Virus record (IMG/VR): IMGVR_UViG_3300004369_000731
Coordinates: 1 to 45,197 of that record
Length of the DNA: 45,197 bases
Reading direction: 5' to 3' (one strand)
Origin: a virus
Below the pieces are notes generated by a model, which saw only the letters and a program-made list of their open reading frames with translations, was not told where the DNA came from and did not search any database. Positions 29,706-34,810 of this stretch are shown one piece after another. Position 1 is the stretch's first letter. Each line of letters opens with the position of its first letter. The position numbers and the translations under genes were made by a program.

Positions 29706-29759
29706 TAAGGGGCGGTGCGTTCTTGCATTGTTCGCTTTGCCTATTTGGGACGCCCCTTA
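29706..29759 (+). terminator. Stem-loop between SSB and nucleotidase genes (possible terminator)
   Basis: TAAGGGGCG (29706-29714) pairs exactly with CGCCCCTTA (29751-29759) across a 36-nt loop, followed by TTTCA. It lies in the 96-nt non-coding gap after the ssDNA-binding protein gene, and directly before a block of unlike base composition. The U-tract is weak, so a role in attenuation or mRNA stability is equally possible. Confidence 0.45.
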
Positions 29760-29778
29760 TTTCACTAGAAAGGTTGTG

Positions 29779-30297
29779 ATGGCTAATATTTGCCTAGATG
29801 TTGATGGTGTCGTTGCCGACTTGGTTGGCGGGATCAATAGAGAACTAGATAAGCGTGGCTTGCCAGATTTTGATTATGCTCATTGGGTTGTGGGTGTGTT
29901 TGAGGATGAGTTGACGCAGGAGATTTTTGGTGAGGCTACGTTTTGGAAGAATTTGAAGCCTTTTGTTGATTCTTGGTATCAGTTGGGTGAGTGGTGGGAT
30001 CAGGGTCATGATATTTTTTTGGTGACTGCTCGTTATTCTGATGCGGCTAGGCGTGTGTTGTTGCCGTGGTTGGATGATTGGAGGTTGCAGTATTCTCAGG
30101 TGTTTTTTGCTGAGATGGGTTCTAAGTTGGAGGTTGTTCGTGGGCTTGATCCTGTGGTGATGGTTGAGGATAATCCTTATGAGGTTCGTGCGTTGAGGGA
30201 GGGTGGTGTTGATTGTTTGTTGATGCGGGCTTGGTATAATTCGGAGTTTTGGGAGGATTTTCCTTCTGTTGGTGCTTTATCGGAGGTTGTTCTGTGA
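29779..30297 (+). CDS. HAD-fold 5'-(deoxy)ribonucleotidase-like protein
   Basis: The product is 172 aa from ATG 29779, behind AAAGG; a longer in-frame reading to 29728 lacks a ribosome site. HAD motif I is at the N-terminus: CLDVDGVVADL, with nucleophile D7 and D9. A T in FLVTARYS is motif II, a Lys in SKLEVV motif III, and VMVEDNPYEV motif IV. The short cap with aromatic residues (FEDELTQEIFGEATFWKNL) is typical of the NT5C-like family. Such enzymes dephosphorylate nucleoside monophosphates and could adjust the nucleotide pool. From here on the top strand is C-poor and G/T-rich, unlike the preceding genes. Confidence 0.75.
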   Translation: MANICLDVDGVVADLVGGINRELDKRGLPDFDYAHWVVGVFEDELTQEIFGEATFWKNLKPFVDSWYQLGEWWDQGHDIFLVTARYSDAARRVLLPWLDDWRLQYSQVFFAEMGSKLEVVRGLDPVVMVEDNPYEVRALREGGVDCLLMRAWYNSEFWEDFPSVGALSEVVL

Positions 30298-31433
30298 AGT
30301 TTGGTTCGTTGTTTGCTGGTGTTGGTGGTTTTGATTTGGGTTTTGAGGCTGCTGGTTTTGAGTGTTGCTGGCAGGTTGAGTGGGATAAGTATTGTCAGGA
30401 GGTGTTGGGGTTTAGGTGGCCTGATGTTCCTAAGTTTGGGGATATTCGGGGTGTTTCTGGTTATGATTTGGAGCCTGTGGATGTTATTACGTATGGGTTT
30501 CCTTGTCAGGATTTGAGTATTGCTGGTCATCAGGCTGGCCTTGATGGTGAGCGTTCTGGTTTGTTTTTTGAAGCTATTCGTATTATTAAGGAGATGAGAG
30601 ATGCAACAGATGGACAATTCCCAAAGGTCGCTATCGCAGAGAATGTCACAGGGTTGCTCTCTGCCGACGGAGGATCTGCGATGGGGAGATGCCTTGACAC
30701 GCTGGCCGAAGCAGGGGCATTGGCAATCGAGTGGTGTGTCTTGGACTCGCAATGGTTCGGAGTTCCCCAGAGACGGAAGCGGGTGTTCCTTGCCTCTGTC
30801 TTCGATTCTGTTGCGGCCAGAAGATGTTGCGGAGAAATTTTTTCTGTCGCAGAAAGCGGCGCAGGGTATCCTGAACAGGTCGGAGCGGAGGGGGAAGAAG
30901 TTGCCGGATTTGTTGAGGGTGGCTCTGGAAACGTTGGTACGTTCAGACTCTTGAGTTTTGGTGAGTATGTTGATGATGGTACGTCTTCGACTGTTCAGGC
31001 TAGGGATTATAAGTATGCTACTGATTTGGTGACTTTTGTTAAGTCTAGGAGGGCGCAGACGAGTGAGGATTTTGAGACTTGGGTTGAGGGTGGTCCTGCT
31101 CCTACGTTGAATCAGTTTGATCTTGGTGATACGAGGTCTACTGTGGCTGTGTTGTCTTTTGATACGAAGTTTGGTTCTAATGCTAATGTGTTTGAGAATG
31201 TTTCTCCGACGTTGAAGGCGAGTCAGGGGTCTCCGAGTTTTGTTGATGGGGTTTCTACTAGGAGGCTTACTCCTGTGGAGTGTGAGCGTTTGATGGGGTG
31301 GCCTGATGATCATACGAAGTTTCGGGCTGATGGTAAGGTAACTTCTGATTCTCAGAGGTTTAAGATGTGTGGTAATGGGGTTGTTGCTCCTGTTGCTGGT
31401 TGGGTTGCTAAGAGTATTGCGAGGGTTTTGTGA
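30294..31433 (+). CDS. DNA (cytosine-5) methyltransferase
   Basis: The product is 379 aa from GTG 30294 (GTGA overlap; GGAGG 8 nt upstream). Canonical C5-MTase motifs are visible in order: I, SLFAGVGGFDLGFEAAGF (SAM site); IV, GFPCQDLS with the catalytic Cys; VI, IAENVTGLL; VIII, VPQRRKRVF; and IX/X near the C-terminus (LTPVECERLMGWP, CGNGVVAPVAGWVAKSI). A target-recognition region lies around residues 165-290. The enzyme should methylate cytosine in phage DNA, probably for protection from host restriction. Bases 30601-30954 also encode a second frame, listed separately, and differ in composition from the rest of the gene. Confidence 0.9.
   Translation: MKFGSLFAGVGGFDLGFEAAGFECCWQVEWDKYCQEVLGFRWPDVPKFGDIRGVSGYDLEPVDVITYGFPCQDLSIAGHQAGLDGERSGLFFEAIRIIKEMRDATDGQFPKVAIAENVTGLLSADGGSAMGRCLDTLAEAGALAIEWCVLDSQWFGVPQRRKRVFLASVFDSVAARRCCGEIFSVAESGAGYPEQVGAEGEEVAGFVEGGSGNVGTFRLLSFGEYVDDGTSSTVQARDYKYATDLVTFVKSRRAQTSEDFETWVEGGPAPTLNQFDLGDTRSTVAVLSFDTKFGSNANVFENVSPTLKASQGSPSFVDGVSTRRLTPVECERLMGWPDDHTKFRADGKVTSDSQRFKMCGNGVVAPVAGWVAKSIARVL
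30601..30954 (+). CDS. Nested +1-frame ORF inside the methyltransferase (candidate overlapping gene)
   Basis: ATG 30601 is 7 nt after AAGGAG (30588-30593), and the frame runs 117 codons to TGA 30952-30954. The N-terminal half is polar (MQQMDNSQRSLSQRM). The second half reads like a folded basic protein, with SGCSLPLSSILL, VAEKFFLSQKAAQGIL, NRSERRGKKLPDLLRVALE. From memory this second half resembles segments of phage proteins associated with cytosine methyltransferases. By hand count C is about 22% over 30601-30900 against about 10% over 30301-30600. A shift that begins at the nested start fits double coding constraint. Alternatively this is a recombined patch in the methyltransferase and the frame is a by-product. 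Confidence 0.55.
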   Translation: MQQMDNSQRSLSQRMSQGCSLPTEDLRWGDALTRWPKQGHWQSSGVSWTRNGSEFPRDGSGCSLPLSSILLRPEDVAEKFFLSQKAAQGILNRSERRGKKLPDLLRVALETLVRSDS

Positions 31434-34400
31434 CGGATTTTGTTCATTTGCATTGTCATAGCGAGTATTCGCTTTTGGATGGTATGTCTCGTCCTGAGGA
31501 TATTGCTCGTATTGCGTCGTCTAATGGCCAGTTTGCGGCGGCTATTACTGATCATGGGACGATGGGGGGTGTGTTGAAGTTTCAGGATGCTTGTGATGCG
31601 TCTGGTGTGCGTCCGTTGTTTGGTATTGAGGCGTATTTTGTGCCGTCTATTGAGTCGGATTCTGATTCTAAGTATGAGCGGTTTCATTTGATTTTGCTGG
31701 CGAAGAATAATGCTGGTTTGCAGAAGTTGTTTAAGGCTAATCAGGTGGGCTGGAAGGATAATTTTTATTATAAGCCTCGTATGGATTTTGCTTTGCTGGA
31801 AGAGCTTGTTGATGATGATATTGTGGCTTTGTCTGGTTGTATGGGTGGTGCGATTTCTAAGGCGATTGAGCGTGGTGATGATGCTGAGGCGGAGCGTTTG
31901 TCTGAGCGGTTTATCAAAATTTTTGGTGATGACTTTTATTATGAGGTTCAGGCGTGGAATCCTGTGTCGTTGAATGAGAAGTTGATTGATCTTGCTGGGT
32001 CGTTCAATAAGAAGGTTGTTGCTACTGCTGATTGTCATTTTCCTTCTGCTCATGATGCTCATGATGAGGAAGTGTTGTTGATGGTTTCTCAGTATCCGTC
32101 GTTGAATGCTGGTCAGGTTCGTCATGCTAAGGAGAATCTGTCTGGTGGCGGTACTGTTACGGATAAGATAAACAGGATGTATCCTGACAGGTTTTTGCGG
32201 TTTGATGAGATTAAGCCGTATGTTGCTCCTGCTGACGAAGTATTGTCTTGGTTTGCGGATAAAGGTTTTAATAATCCTGAGTATCTTGAGAATACGATTG
32301 AGGTTGCTGATAAGTGTTCGGCTCGTATTGAGAAGCGTAAGAATTTGTTGCCGAAGTATATTAAGGCTTTGGATTCCGATGATTATCTTCGTGAGATATG
32401 CGAGTTTGCTTTGTCAGAGAAGGGGCTGGATGATGATGTGTATCGTGATCGTCTTGCTTCTGAGTTGGAGATCATTAAGGGGCTTGGTTTCTCTGATTAT
32501 TTCTTGATGGTTTGGGATTTGGTGAAGTGGGCTGACGCTAATGATGTTGGTCGTGGTACTGGTCGTGGTTCGGTCGGTGGTAGCTTGATCGCTTTTGTCT
32601 TAGATATTTCTAAGGTTGACCCCATCAAGTACAATCTGTTGTTTGCTCGCTTTATTAACCCTGATCGTAATGACTATCCTGATATTGATTTGGACTTTGA
32701 GGATAAGCAGCGTGATCGTGTTAAGCAGTATCTTGCTGAGCGGTGGGGTGAGGACAATGTTGCAGCTATTGCGACTTATGGTGTGTTTAAGCCGAAGTCT
32801 GTGATTAAAGATGTTGCCCGCGTCTTTCAGGTTCCTTTTGATGAGACGAATAGTGTGACTCCGTTCTTTGAGACTTTGGAAGAGTTGCAGGCTACCGATA
32901 AGGGTAAGACGTTTATTAAGAAGTATCCTGAGGTGTTGCCGGTTGCTCAAAAGTTGGAGGGCCGTATTCGTAATACTGGTATTCATGCGGCTGGCATGGT
33001 GGTGTCTTCGGTTCCTTTGACTGAGATTTGTCCTGTGGAGACTCGCAAGGGGACTACTGGCGAGGGTCGTGCTCCTGTCACTTCTTTTGACATGGAGGAC
33101 GCTGAGGCGGTTGGTTTGATTAAGGTTGATATTCTTGGTTTGAAGACTGTTTCTGTGATTAAGGATTGTATTTCTAAGATTAAGGAGATTCATGGTGTTG
33201 ATGTTACTGAAGCATCGCTGGGTCTTGATGATCCAGAAGTGTTCAAAAATTTCAATGAGGGCAACACTGTCGGTGTGTTTCAAGCTGATGCTGCTGCTTA
33301 TAGGAACCTTATTGAGCGTATGGGGATTGATGATTTTAATGATTTGGTTGTTTCTAATGCGCTAGTTCGGCCAGGGGCTTTGCTTTCTCAGGGGCAGACG
33401 TATATTGACTGTAAGAAGGGTGAGGCTAACCCTAAGTATCCTCATGAGGTTGTAAAAGACATTCTTGAAGAGACTTACGGAACGGTCATCTTTCAGGAGC
33501 AGTTGATGCAGATGGCCGTGGTGCTAGCGGGCTTTTCTTGGTCTGAGGCTGACAAGCTTCGTAAGATTATTGGTAAGAAGCGTGATGCGGCTGGGTTTGA
33601 TGAGTATAGGGAGAAGTTCTGTAACAACGAGTATTTGACTCGTAAGCAGTCTGAGAAGATTTGGGCTGACTTTGAACTTGCGGCTTTGTATATGTTCAAT
33701 AAGTCGCACGCTGTTGCTTATTCGATGTTGTCGTATCAGACGATGTGGTTGAAGATTAACTACCCAAAGGAATTTGTGTGGTCAATGCTGTACAACGAGT
33801 CTGAGAAAGGCAAGATTACTGCTTATCTTATGGAAGCAAGTCGTCTTGGTATTGCTGTCCTTCCGCCAGATGTTAACTTGTCTGGTGAGTCTTTCTCTAT
33901 TGATGATGAAGGTATCCGGTTTGGTTTGAGAAATGTTTTAAGCTGCGGAAACACTGCGATTGAGGAAATATTTAAGCATCGACCATTCGAGTCTTTTGAT
34001 GAGTTTACTAACAAGTGCAGTAAGCGTCATGTTAAGGCTCCGCTTAGGGAGAACTTGGATAAGGTGGGTGCCTTTGCAAGTATGGGTTATGAGTCGGCTT
34101 ATGATCATGAGCGGTATTATCTCCCAATTCTGGGTTTTGCTATCGGTATGGGTTCGTCGTCTAATGAGATGGATGAGGTGGTGGAGCCGATTGAGGGCTT
34201 CCATGAGATTTACTCAGAACTGCGTCTGGTGAAGGCTGTGGTTCGTTCTACGAAGAAGACGCCCAAATACCTCAGGGTAGAAATAGAAGATCAGACTGCC
34301 TCTACGACTGTGTTTTGTGACAGGAACTCTGAGATTGCTAACAGAGACTTTATGTACTGCCTCATAGGTGACAGAACGATGCATATGTTCTGCGATGCTT

Positions 34401-34810
34401 ATGATTATGTTGGAACAGAACTTTACGATCTGACCATGCTTGTTCGTAAAGGCAAGGATCATGAGTATTCATGGCTGTATGAAACGGGTCTTGGTGATTC
34501 TTCAGATGAACGTAGCCTGTTGTATATCTTTAGCACAAGGACGTTTACAACGTCTAAGGGTAAAGATATGTGCAACTTCTACGCTTGGGACGGAGAGAAG
34601 ATTATCAAGGTCGTAGTTTTTCCGTTCTTGTACGGAAAAATGCGTCATTTATTCGGAAAAACCGGATGGCACGCTGCTAAACTAAAAGGAGTGAAGGACT
34701 TGGAAGCGGCGGCTCGTCTTGATTCGTACACTTTAGATAACGAGAACTCACTTATCACTATTGACAACTACATCGAAAGAAAGGGTTTAGTCAGAGAGAA
34801 TGTCAGTTAA
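31430..34810 (+). CDS. dnaE: DNA polymerase III alpha subunit (DnaE-type, C-family)
   Basis: The product is 1126 aa from GTG 31430 (GTGA overlap; GAGGG upstream), nearly the length of bacterial DnaE (~1160). The PHP domain opens with VHLHCHSEYSLLDGMSRPED and contains ITDHGTMGG and ADCHFPSAHDAHDEEVLL. The palm has GRGTGRGSVGGSLIAF (~377) and YPDIDLDFED (~415, the catalytic D-x-D), with the third Asp in KVDILGLKTVSVI (~567). A fingers/HhH-like region with SHAVAYSMLSYQTMWLK follows (~760). An OB-like region is likely near 930-1080. It should be the phage replicase. No proofreading subunit is encoded in the window. The first ~2.8 kb is C-poor and G/T-rich, changing near 34240 to the composition of the following genes. 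Confidence 0.9.
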   Translation: MTDFVHLHCHSEYSLLDGMSRPEDIARIASSNGQFAAAITDHGTMGGVLKFQDACDASGVRPLFGIEAYFVPSIESDSDSKYERFHLILLAKNNAGLQKLFKANQVGWKDNFYYKPRMDFALLEELVDDDIVALSGCMGGAISKAIERGDDAEAERLSERFIKIFGDDFYYEVQAWNPVSLNEKLIDLAGSFNKKVVATADCHFPSAHDAHDEEVLLMVSQYPSLNAGQVRHAKENLSGGGTVTDKINRMYPDRFLRFDEIKPYVAPADEVLSWFADKGFNNPEYLENTIEVADKCSARIEKRKNLLPKYIKALDSDDYLREICEFALSEKGLDDDVYRDRLASELEIIKGLGFSDYFLMVWDLVKWADANDVGRGTGRGSVGGSLIAFVLDISKVDPIKYNLLFARFINPDRNDYPDIDLDFEDKQRDRVKQYLAERWGEDNVAAIATYGVFKPKSVIKDVARVFQVPFDETNSVTPFFETLEELQATDKGKTFIKKYPEVLPVAQKLEGRIRNTGIHAAGMVVSSVPLTEICPVETRKGTTGEGRAPVTSFDMEDAEAVGLIKVDILGLKTVSVIKDCISKIKEIHGVDVTEASLGLDDPEVFKNFNEGNTVGVFQADAAAYRNLIERMGIDDFNDLVVSNALVRPGALLSQGQTYIDCKKGEANPKYPHEVVKDILEETYGTVIFQEQLMQMAVVLAGFSWSEADKLRKIIGKKRDAAGFDEYREKFCNNEYLTRKQSEKIWADFELAALYMFNKSHAVAYSMLSYQTMWLKINYPKEFVWSMLYNESEKGKITAYLMEASRLGIAVLPPDVNLSGESFSIDDEGIRFGLRNVLSCGNTAIEEIFKHRPFESFDEFTNKCSKRHVKAPLRENLDKVGAFASMGYESAYDHERYYLPILGFAIGMGSSSNEMDEVVEPIEGFHEIYSELRLVKAVVRSTKKTPKYLRVEIEDQTASTTVFCDRNSEIANRDFMYCLIGDRTMHMFCDAYDYVGTELYDLTMLVRKGKDHEYSWLYETGLGDSSDERSLLYIFSTRTFTTSKGKDMCNFYAWDGEKIIKVVVFPFLYGKMRHLFGKTGWHAAKLKGVKDLEAAARLDSYTLDNENSLITIDNYIERKGLVRENVS

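Follow-up and report, generated by a model that had tools for sequence, protein, structure and literature searches.

The sequence studied here, referred to below as the window, is the whole 45,197-nt stretch of virus DNA in IMG/VR record IMGVR_UViG_3300004369_000731, positions 1 to 45,197. It carries a C5-cytosine DNA methyltransferase gene (the outer gene; Table 1), packed tightly between a HAD-like gene, whose stop overlaps its GTG start (a position assigned from homologues), and a DNA polymerase III alpha-like gene. Its product matches the Pfam domain PF00145 over residues 1-376 (E 7e-62) and phrog_116 (E 6.6e-84), and it displays motifs I to X of the C5-cytosine DNA methyltransferases in order, including PCQ, ENV, VPQRRKRVF and RRLTPVECERLMG. 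Wholly inside this gene, a second open reading frame (the nested ORF) starts with an ATG at 30601 in the +1 frame and runs over 117 codons to a TGA at 30952-30954; another TGA closes the +1 frame just before this start. A preliminary description of the window had pointed out this ORF, the consensus AAGGAG 7 nt before its ATG and the ENV and VPQRRKRVF motifs kept by the outer frame across the same bases, all of which we recovered. Note that, from the window sequence alone, the openness of the nested frame is unremarkable, with 1.4 stops expected given the outer protein and codon usage and P(none)=0.23.

Table 1. Positions of the genes and features at the methyltransferase locus (coordinates of the window)
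Feature	Position	Strand	Basis and remarks
Upstream gene, DVDGVVADL motif, HAD/5'-nucleotidase-like	29728..30297	+	Judged by eye; stop overlaps methyltransferase start
Outer gene, C5-cytosine DNA methyltransferase, 379 aa	30294..31433	+	PF00145 and phrog_116 profile matches
Shine-Dalgarno AAGGAG of the nested gene	30588..30593	+	Read directly; 7 nt before ATG; overlaps outer-frame KE codons
Putative nested gene, 117-aa basic protein, +1 frame of the methyltransferase	30601..30954	+	Stop depletion, synonymous constraint, start/Shine-Dalgarno conservation, homologues in all outer-selected loci
Nested N-terminal tail, predicted disordered	30601..30792	+	AF2 pLDDT 42-52 over residues 1-60; overlaps outer catalytic core (ENV, VPQRR)
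Nested C-terminal core, predicted folded (VAEKFFLSQKAAQGILNRSERRGKKLPDLLRVALE...)	30793..30945	+	AF2 pLDDT 88-95 over residues 71-110; overlaps poorly predicted outer linker
Downstream gene, DNA polymerase III alpha-like	31430..34810	+	Judged by eye; start overlaps methyltransferase stop

We searched viral contigs with the outer protein only and obtained 80 loci, every one of which (80/80) holds a homologue of the nested protein in the +1 frame, as expected from the earlier proposal that the region is a recurrent case of dual coding. Stop codons were then counted over outer codons 103-218 in 73 loci for which the outer protein was the sole selection criterion, and compared with the expectation from synonymous reshuffling using each gene's own codon usage. 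The +1 frame displays 3 stops against 281 expected, with none at all in 71 of the 73 loci, so that the alternative outcome raised beforehand, stops in most homologues, is not seen. Depletion in the other forward frame and in other parts of the gene is not comparable: the +2 frame has 282 stops versus 353 expected, and the +1 frame has 219 versus 277 upstream of the nested region and 400 versus 411 downstream.

Synonymous change in the outer frame, the comparison suggested in the preliminary description, gave a concordant pattern. Over 2623 pairs, which are not independent (a minor concern given the effect sizes and the sharp borders), the synonymous ratio is 1.08-1.36 (~1.15 of the gene mean) everywhere outside 30594-30953; it drops to 0.55-0.97 in the N-terminal half of the overlap and to 0.14-0.58 from 30804 on, and the borders of the dip coincide with the ends of the nested ORF. 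Ratios over the core are 0.20-0.25 in 80 loci from bacterial genomes and 0.32-0.41 in 80 further viral loci, two sets found with nested-frame patterns and therefore supporting, non-independent evidence. The variability of the bases also follows the nested frame: over 30804-30954, outer codon position 1, which is nested position 3, is the most variable (1.25 bits) and outer position 3, which is nested position 2, the least (0.72 bits), as compared with 1.45-1.56 bits for position 3 elsewhere. Over the core bases, identity averages 66% for the nested protein versus 41% for the outer one and is higher for the nested protein in 2627 of 2627 pairs, while over the N-terminal half it is 48% versus 60%. 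In a control set of methyltransferases without the nested ORF, the synonymous ratio falls to 0.64-0.9 at conserved motifs, and a second control with few close pairs displays noisier dips. Since conserved motifs can lower the ratio without any ORF, the signal from the N-terminal half is weaker when taken alone; the constraint on the core is far beyond such dips.

The start signal is also conserved, as the preliminary description had proposed to check. A Shine-Dalgarno-like site followed by an in-frame ATG is present in 67 of 71 loci (11.0 expected), and strict AGGAG or GGAGG sites lie upstream of the nested ATG in 42 of the 71 (5.2 expected). From one lineage to another, the start shifts by a few codons, together with its ribosome site; several distant loci among L090-L104 have no ATG near the expected position. 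Overall, the nested ORF combines a frame open beyond expectation, a synonymous drop confined to the overlap and a conserved start with its ribosome site, as in overlapping genes, and the earlier impression that both frames are constrained holds.

Homologues of the nested protein are widespread. A tblastn search with the nested protein returned 121 phage records; with the consensus of its core, the count was 129 for phages and 532 for plasmids, the latter mostly P1-like; the phage records include the dmt gene of phage P1, mycobacteriophages, and streptococcal, vibrio and gut phages. As these matches lie mostly under genes annotated as methyltransferases, they agree with the resemblance to methyltransferase-linked phage proteins mentioned in the preliminary description. 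Seven records were checked for frame (L107-L113), and all have the match in +1 relative to the methyltransferase, with no annotation. The profile search that had been suggested for the nested protein found the 80 bacterial-genome loci (Proteobacteria, Acidobacteria, Planctomycetes, Bacteroidota, Firmicutes, Actinobacteria and others) and the 80 further viral loci; 160 of 160 overlap a methyltransferase in +1, and no free-standing nested homologue was found among them. Since 1335 phage records, a rough guide to frequency, match the outer protein, the full-length nested form would belong to a minority of phage C5 methyltransferases. Nearly all records that we inspected leave the nested gene unannotated, and the frame is called as a gene in a few only (P0095_51, Thibault gp104). 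The phrog_16143 profile matches 47 of 63 nested members (best E 2e-11), the member from the window weakly (E 0.0098).

The window also displays a local shift in composition, and the approximate C contents given earlier (about 10%, about 22%, then lower after 31000) are confirmed at 9.7% in 30301-30600, 21.7% in 30601-30900 and 13.2% in 31000-31430. At fourfold sites of the methyltransferase gene outside the nested ORF, T makes up 72%, G 26%, A 1% and C 1%, compared to T 26%, G 23%, A 27% and C 24% inside. A and C are almost lost from silent sites from ~29,880 to beyond 32,000, an effect fading by ~34,500. Because the nested frame makes silent outer sites amino-acid-changing, the C-rich stretch is spared from this regional codon bias. 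The same contrast between inside and outside is found in lineages L001, L002, L003 and L013, and the spared island is present in five related lineages; in L049 the bias outside is C-rich, yet the composition inside is similar to that of the other lineages. The mean composition over 86 loci hardly shifts at the nested region, which argues against a generally transferred patch. We thus discarded a recombined patch with borders independent of the nested frame, the alternative named beforehand: borders and composition follow the frame in several lineages. Nor does the composition shift mark the nested gene in general, given the 86-locus mean; it is visible only under strong codon bias. As a separate observation, the extreme strand asymmetry of silent sites over 29,880-34,500, in which A and C are nearly absent at fourfold and twofold sites, is common to L001, L002, L003 and L013; its left edge is sharp and lies inside the HAD-like gene, and it fades progressively over the length of the polymerase gene. 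It looks like a gradient of C-to-T plus A-to-G mutation, perhaps arising from single-strand exposure near a replication origin.

AlphaFold2 models were used to compare the two proteins. The catalytic domain of the outer protein is mostly confident and residues 88-178 are mostly well predicted; pLDDT is < 50 over residues 185-319 and falls from 46 to 25 over residues 181-220, bearing in mind that low pLDDT is a proxy for disorder only and that part of this low confidence reflects the variable target-recognition region. The nested core is modeled as a monomer with two helices (residues 84-97 and 103-114) and no strand. From these models, the folded part of each frame seems to coincide with the loose part of the other. 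With the nested model, Foldseek against the PDB gave nothing at E below 1, VIA-align hits did not exceed Z 3.4 (for the most part a single sigma-factor helical pair), and BFVD returned two family members only, Thibault gp104 and an annotated methyltransferase. By sequence, the nested protein has no match in the PDB or NCBIfam, and the C-terminal halves of nested proteins have none in Pfam. The Pfam ribbon-helix-helix family RHH_1 (CopG, PF01402) matches 4 of 63 nested members, with a best E of 6.5e-4, and does not match the window member.

The sequence of the core nevertheless bears on its origin. Its consensus, SLSxILExxxVPxKYYLSxKAxxGILRR, is similar to DILE..VDEKYYLS, a segment found downstream of motif VIII in other C5 methyltransferases, where it is read in frame 0; phmmer aligns this segment of IME-SA4, NTRLVDILEKDVDESYYLSEEK, with HhaI residues ~190-215. 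Comparing the nested core and the post-motif-VIII segment, hhalign gave a probability of 86%, P 5e-6 and a score of 35 over 30 columns only, whereas 30 column shuffles gave scores <= 16. The segment was not found in the own frame of window-type outer proteins. Among staphylococcal relatives, those retaining the segment in frame 0 have a different, shorter +1 ORF of 114 codons ending just after motif VIII (MTSQALQMNIFDYTEDK...; L283 1652-1993, L297-L308), with a synonymous ratio of 0.51 versus 1.24 and an AGGAGG-type site in most; a methyltransferase set without this ORF displays only a mild dip (0.89 versus 1.21). Given its resemblance to the in-frame segment, the nested core probably arose by frame displacement of a methyltransferase segment, next to a +1 frame that was already in use. 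The C-terminal part of the nested protein would thus have been displaced from a methyltransferase and not have arisen entirely de novo.

Several unusual arrangements were met among the related loci. In Mycobacterium phage Kazan, genes 90 and 89 (L280 1501-2028 and 1874-2500) split the methyltransferase, with a +1 overlap of ~150 nt around motif VIII, possibly a relative of the ancestral arrangement. In Mycobacterium phage Thibault (genes 102-105; L274 817-2618), the methyltransferase gene is interrupted by an inserted HNH endonuclease gene, across which the outer frame remains open, and the annotated gp104 corresponds to the C-terminal core of the nested protein. Streptococcus phage Javan355 (L281 1501-2628) has an intact methyltransferase frame, the first half of which is covered by a hypothetical gene annotated in antisense, and the nested +1 ORF is also present (1646-2152). 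The IME-SA4-related methyltransferases of L312-L325 have their N-terminal (185 codons) and C-terminal parts in different frames, in some with an extra ORF between. Finally, L097 and L094 have motif IX of the methyltransferase (RRLTPVECERLMG and similar sequences) in the nested frame, further downstream, from which an indel would have moved the tail of the enzyme into +1, a sequencing error being also possible.

Taken together, the comparisons make it very probable that the nested frame is a selected protein-coding gene with a methyltransferase-linked role of some kind, and we infer that it is translated. An internal translation start of its own would produce, from the methyltransferase gene, a small basic protein made of a helical C-terminal core preceded by a flexible N-terminal tail. 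The tail would share its bases with the rigid catalytic motifs of the enzyme, and the core with the loose linker that follows motif VIII. By frame displacement, the nested gene would have taken over the DILE..VDEKYYLS segment of the enzyme family. It is barely credible that there is no dual coding at all and that the region owes its features to recombination of a patch, to an RNA or DNA element or to the conservation of the outer protein. The composition shift is real, but it occurs in several lineages, with a similar composition inside despite an opposite bias outside; RNA folding of the region is unremarkable (z -1.53), the outer protein is less conserved than the nested one over the core, and the constraint follows the +1 frame, so that the comparative tests contradict this explanation unless the alignments are wrong. 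It is also very improbable that ribosomes reach the +1 frame by programmed frameshifting and make an enzyme with an alternative C-terminus instead of a separate protein. Such a product would restore the segment that canonical enzymes carry in cis; it would, however, be devoid of motifs IX-X. Openness and constraint start already at the nested ATG, long before motif VIII is reached, which makes frameshift access unlikely, the Shine-Dalgarno site and ATG are conserved, and in the window the TGA closes +1 just before the nested start.

Regarding the role of the protein, the nested gene was never found without a methyltransferase, and thus it most likely acts on or with the enzyme. From this association, from the inspected surroundings of the methyltransferases (see below) and from the relatedness of the core to the enzyme's own family, a small partner or regulator that is made alongside the methyltransferase and acts directly through it would be the likeliest role, though at somewhat less than even odds. 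A more specific and more doubtful version is that the methyltransferase is a two-polypeptide enzyme encoded in two overlapping frames, with the displaced segment supplied or controlled in trans by the nested protein. We consider it rather unlikely that the nested protein is a DNA-binding, ribbon-helix-helix-like autoregulator of the methyltransferase operon, with a role like that of Com in phage Mu or of restriction-modification controller proteins. The protein is basic, its two predicted core helices have the length and spacing of such a fold, the weak RHH_1 matches go in the same direction and the gene lies inside the one under its supposed control; against this, the monomer model lacks the strand, neither the structural searches nor Pfam with the C-terminal halves alone gave a match, and homology to the methyltransferase segment accounts for the core at least equally well. 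Less probable still is a role in counter-defence, directed at McrBC-type enzymes, which attack DNA containing 5-methylcytosine. It would fit the obligate pairing with phage and prophage C5 methyltransferases and the inspected loci, where orphan methyltransferases lie in phage genomes or prophage-like regions with no visible restriction partner (neighbours judged by eye). However, counter-defence genes usually also occur as stand-alone genes, whereas the nested gene is never alone among the 160 loci.

As in phiX174 and in Rz/Rz1 of phage lambda, a second same-strand protein would be read in another frame from its own start, with reduced synonymous change. Unlike these, the nested gene lies inside a DNA methyltransferase of dsDNA phages, is found in phages and prophages of many phyla, and has a core that appears to be a displaced piece of its host gene's own family. 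The canonical segment after motif VIII (HhaI ~190-215, IME-SA4 DILEKDVDESYYLS) is similar in sequence and is read in the enzyme's own frame, whereas the nested core is read in +1 and continues as KAxxGILxRxxRRGKxLP. Com/mom of phage Mu also pairs a small protein gene with an overlapping phage DNA-modification gene. Com, however, overlaps only part of its partner, while the nested gene lies wholly inside, and the nested protein has no Pfam match to such a family. In the databases, phrog_16143 ('DNA methyltransferase', a 139-position profile), P0095_51 and Thibault gp104 match or are the nested frame itself; they are labelled methyltransferase or hypothetical, and the overlap and the selection are not noted there. 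We found no earlier description of the methyltransferase/nested-gene overlap in open-access papers.

To our knowledge, dsDNA phages and prokaryotes rarely have long same-strand nested genes that are broadly and deeply conserved, and standard annotation misses them. The gene described here is found in dmt of phage P1, in hundreds of P1-like plasmids, and in phages and prophages of many phyla. It raises the questions of how two folds may share one sequence, how a gene may be born from a known domain by frame displacement and whether phage C5 methyltransferases have a built-in partner, all of which could be tested in phage P1.
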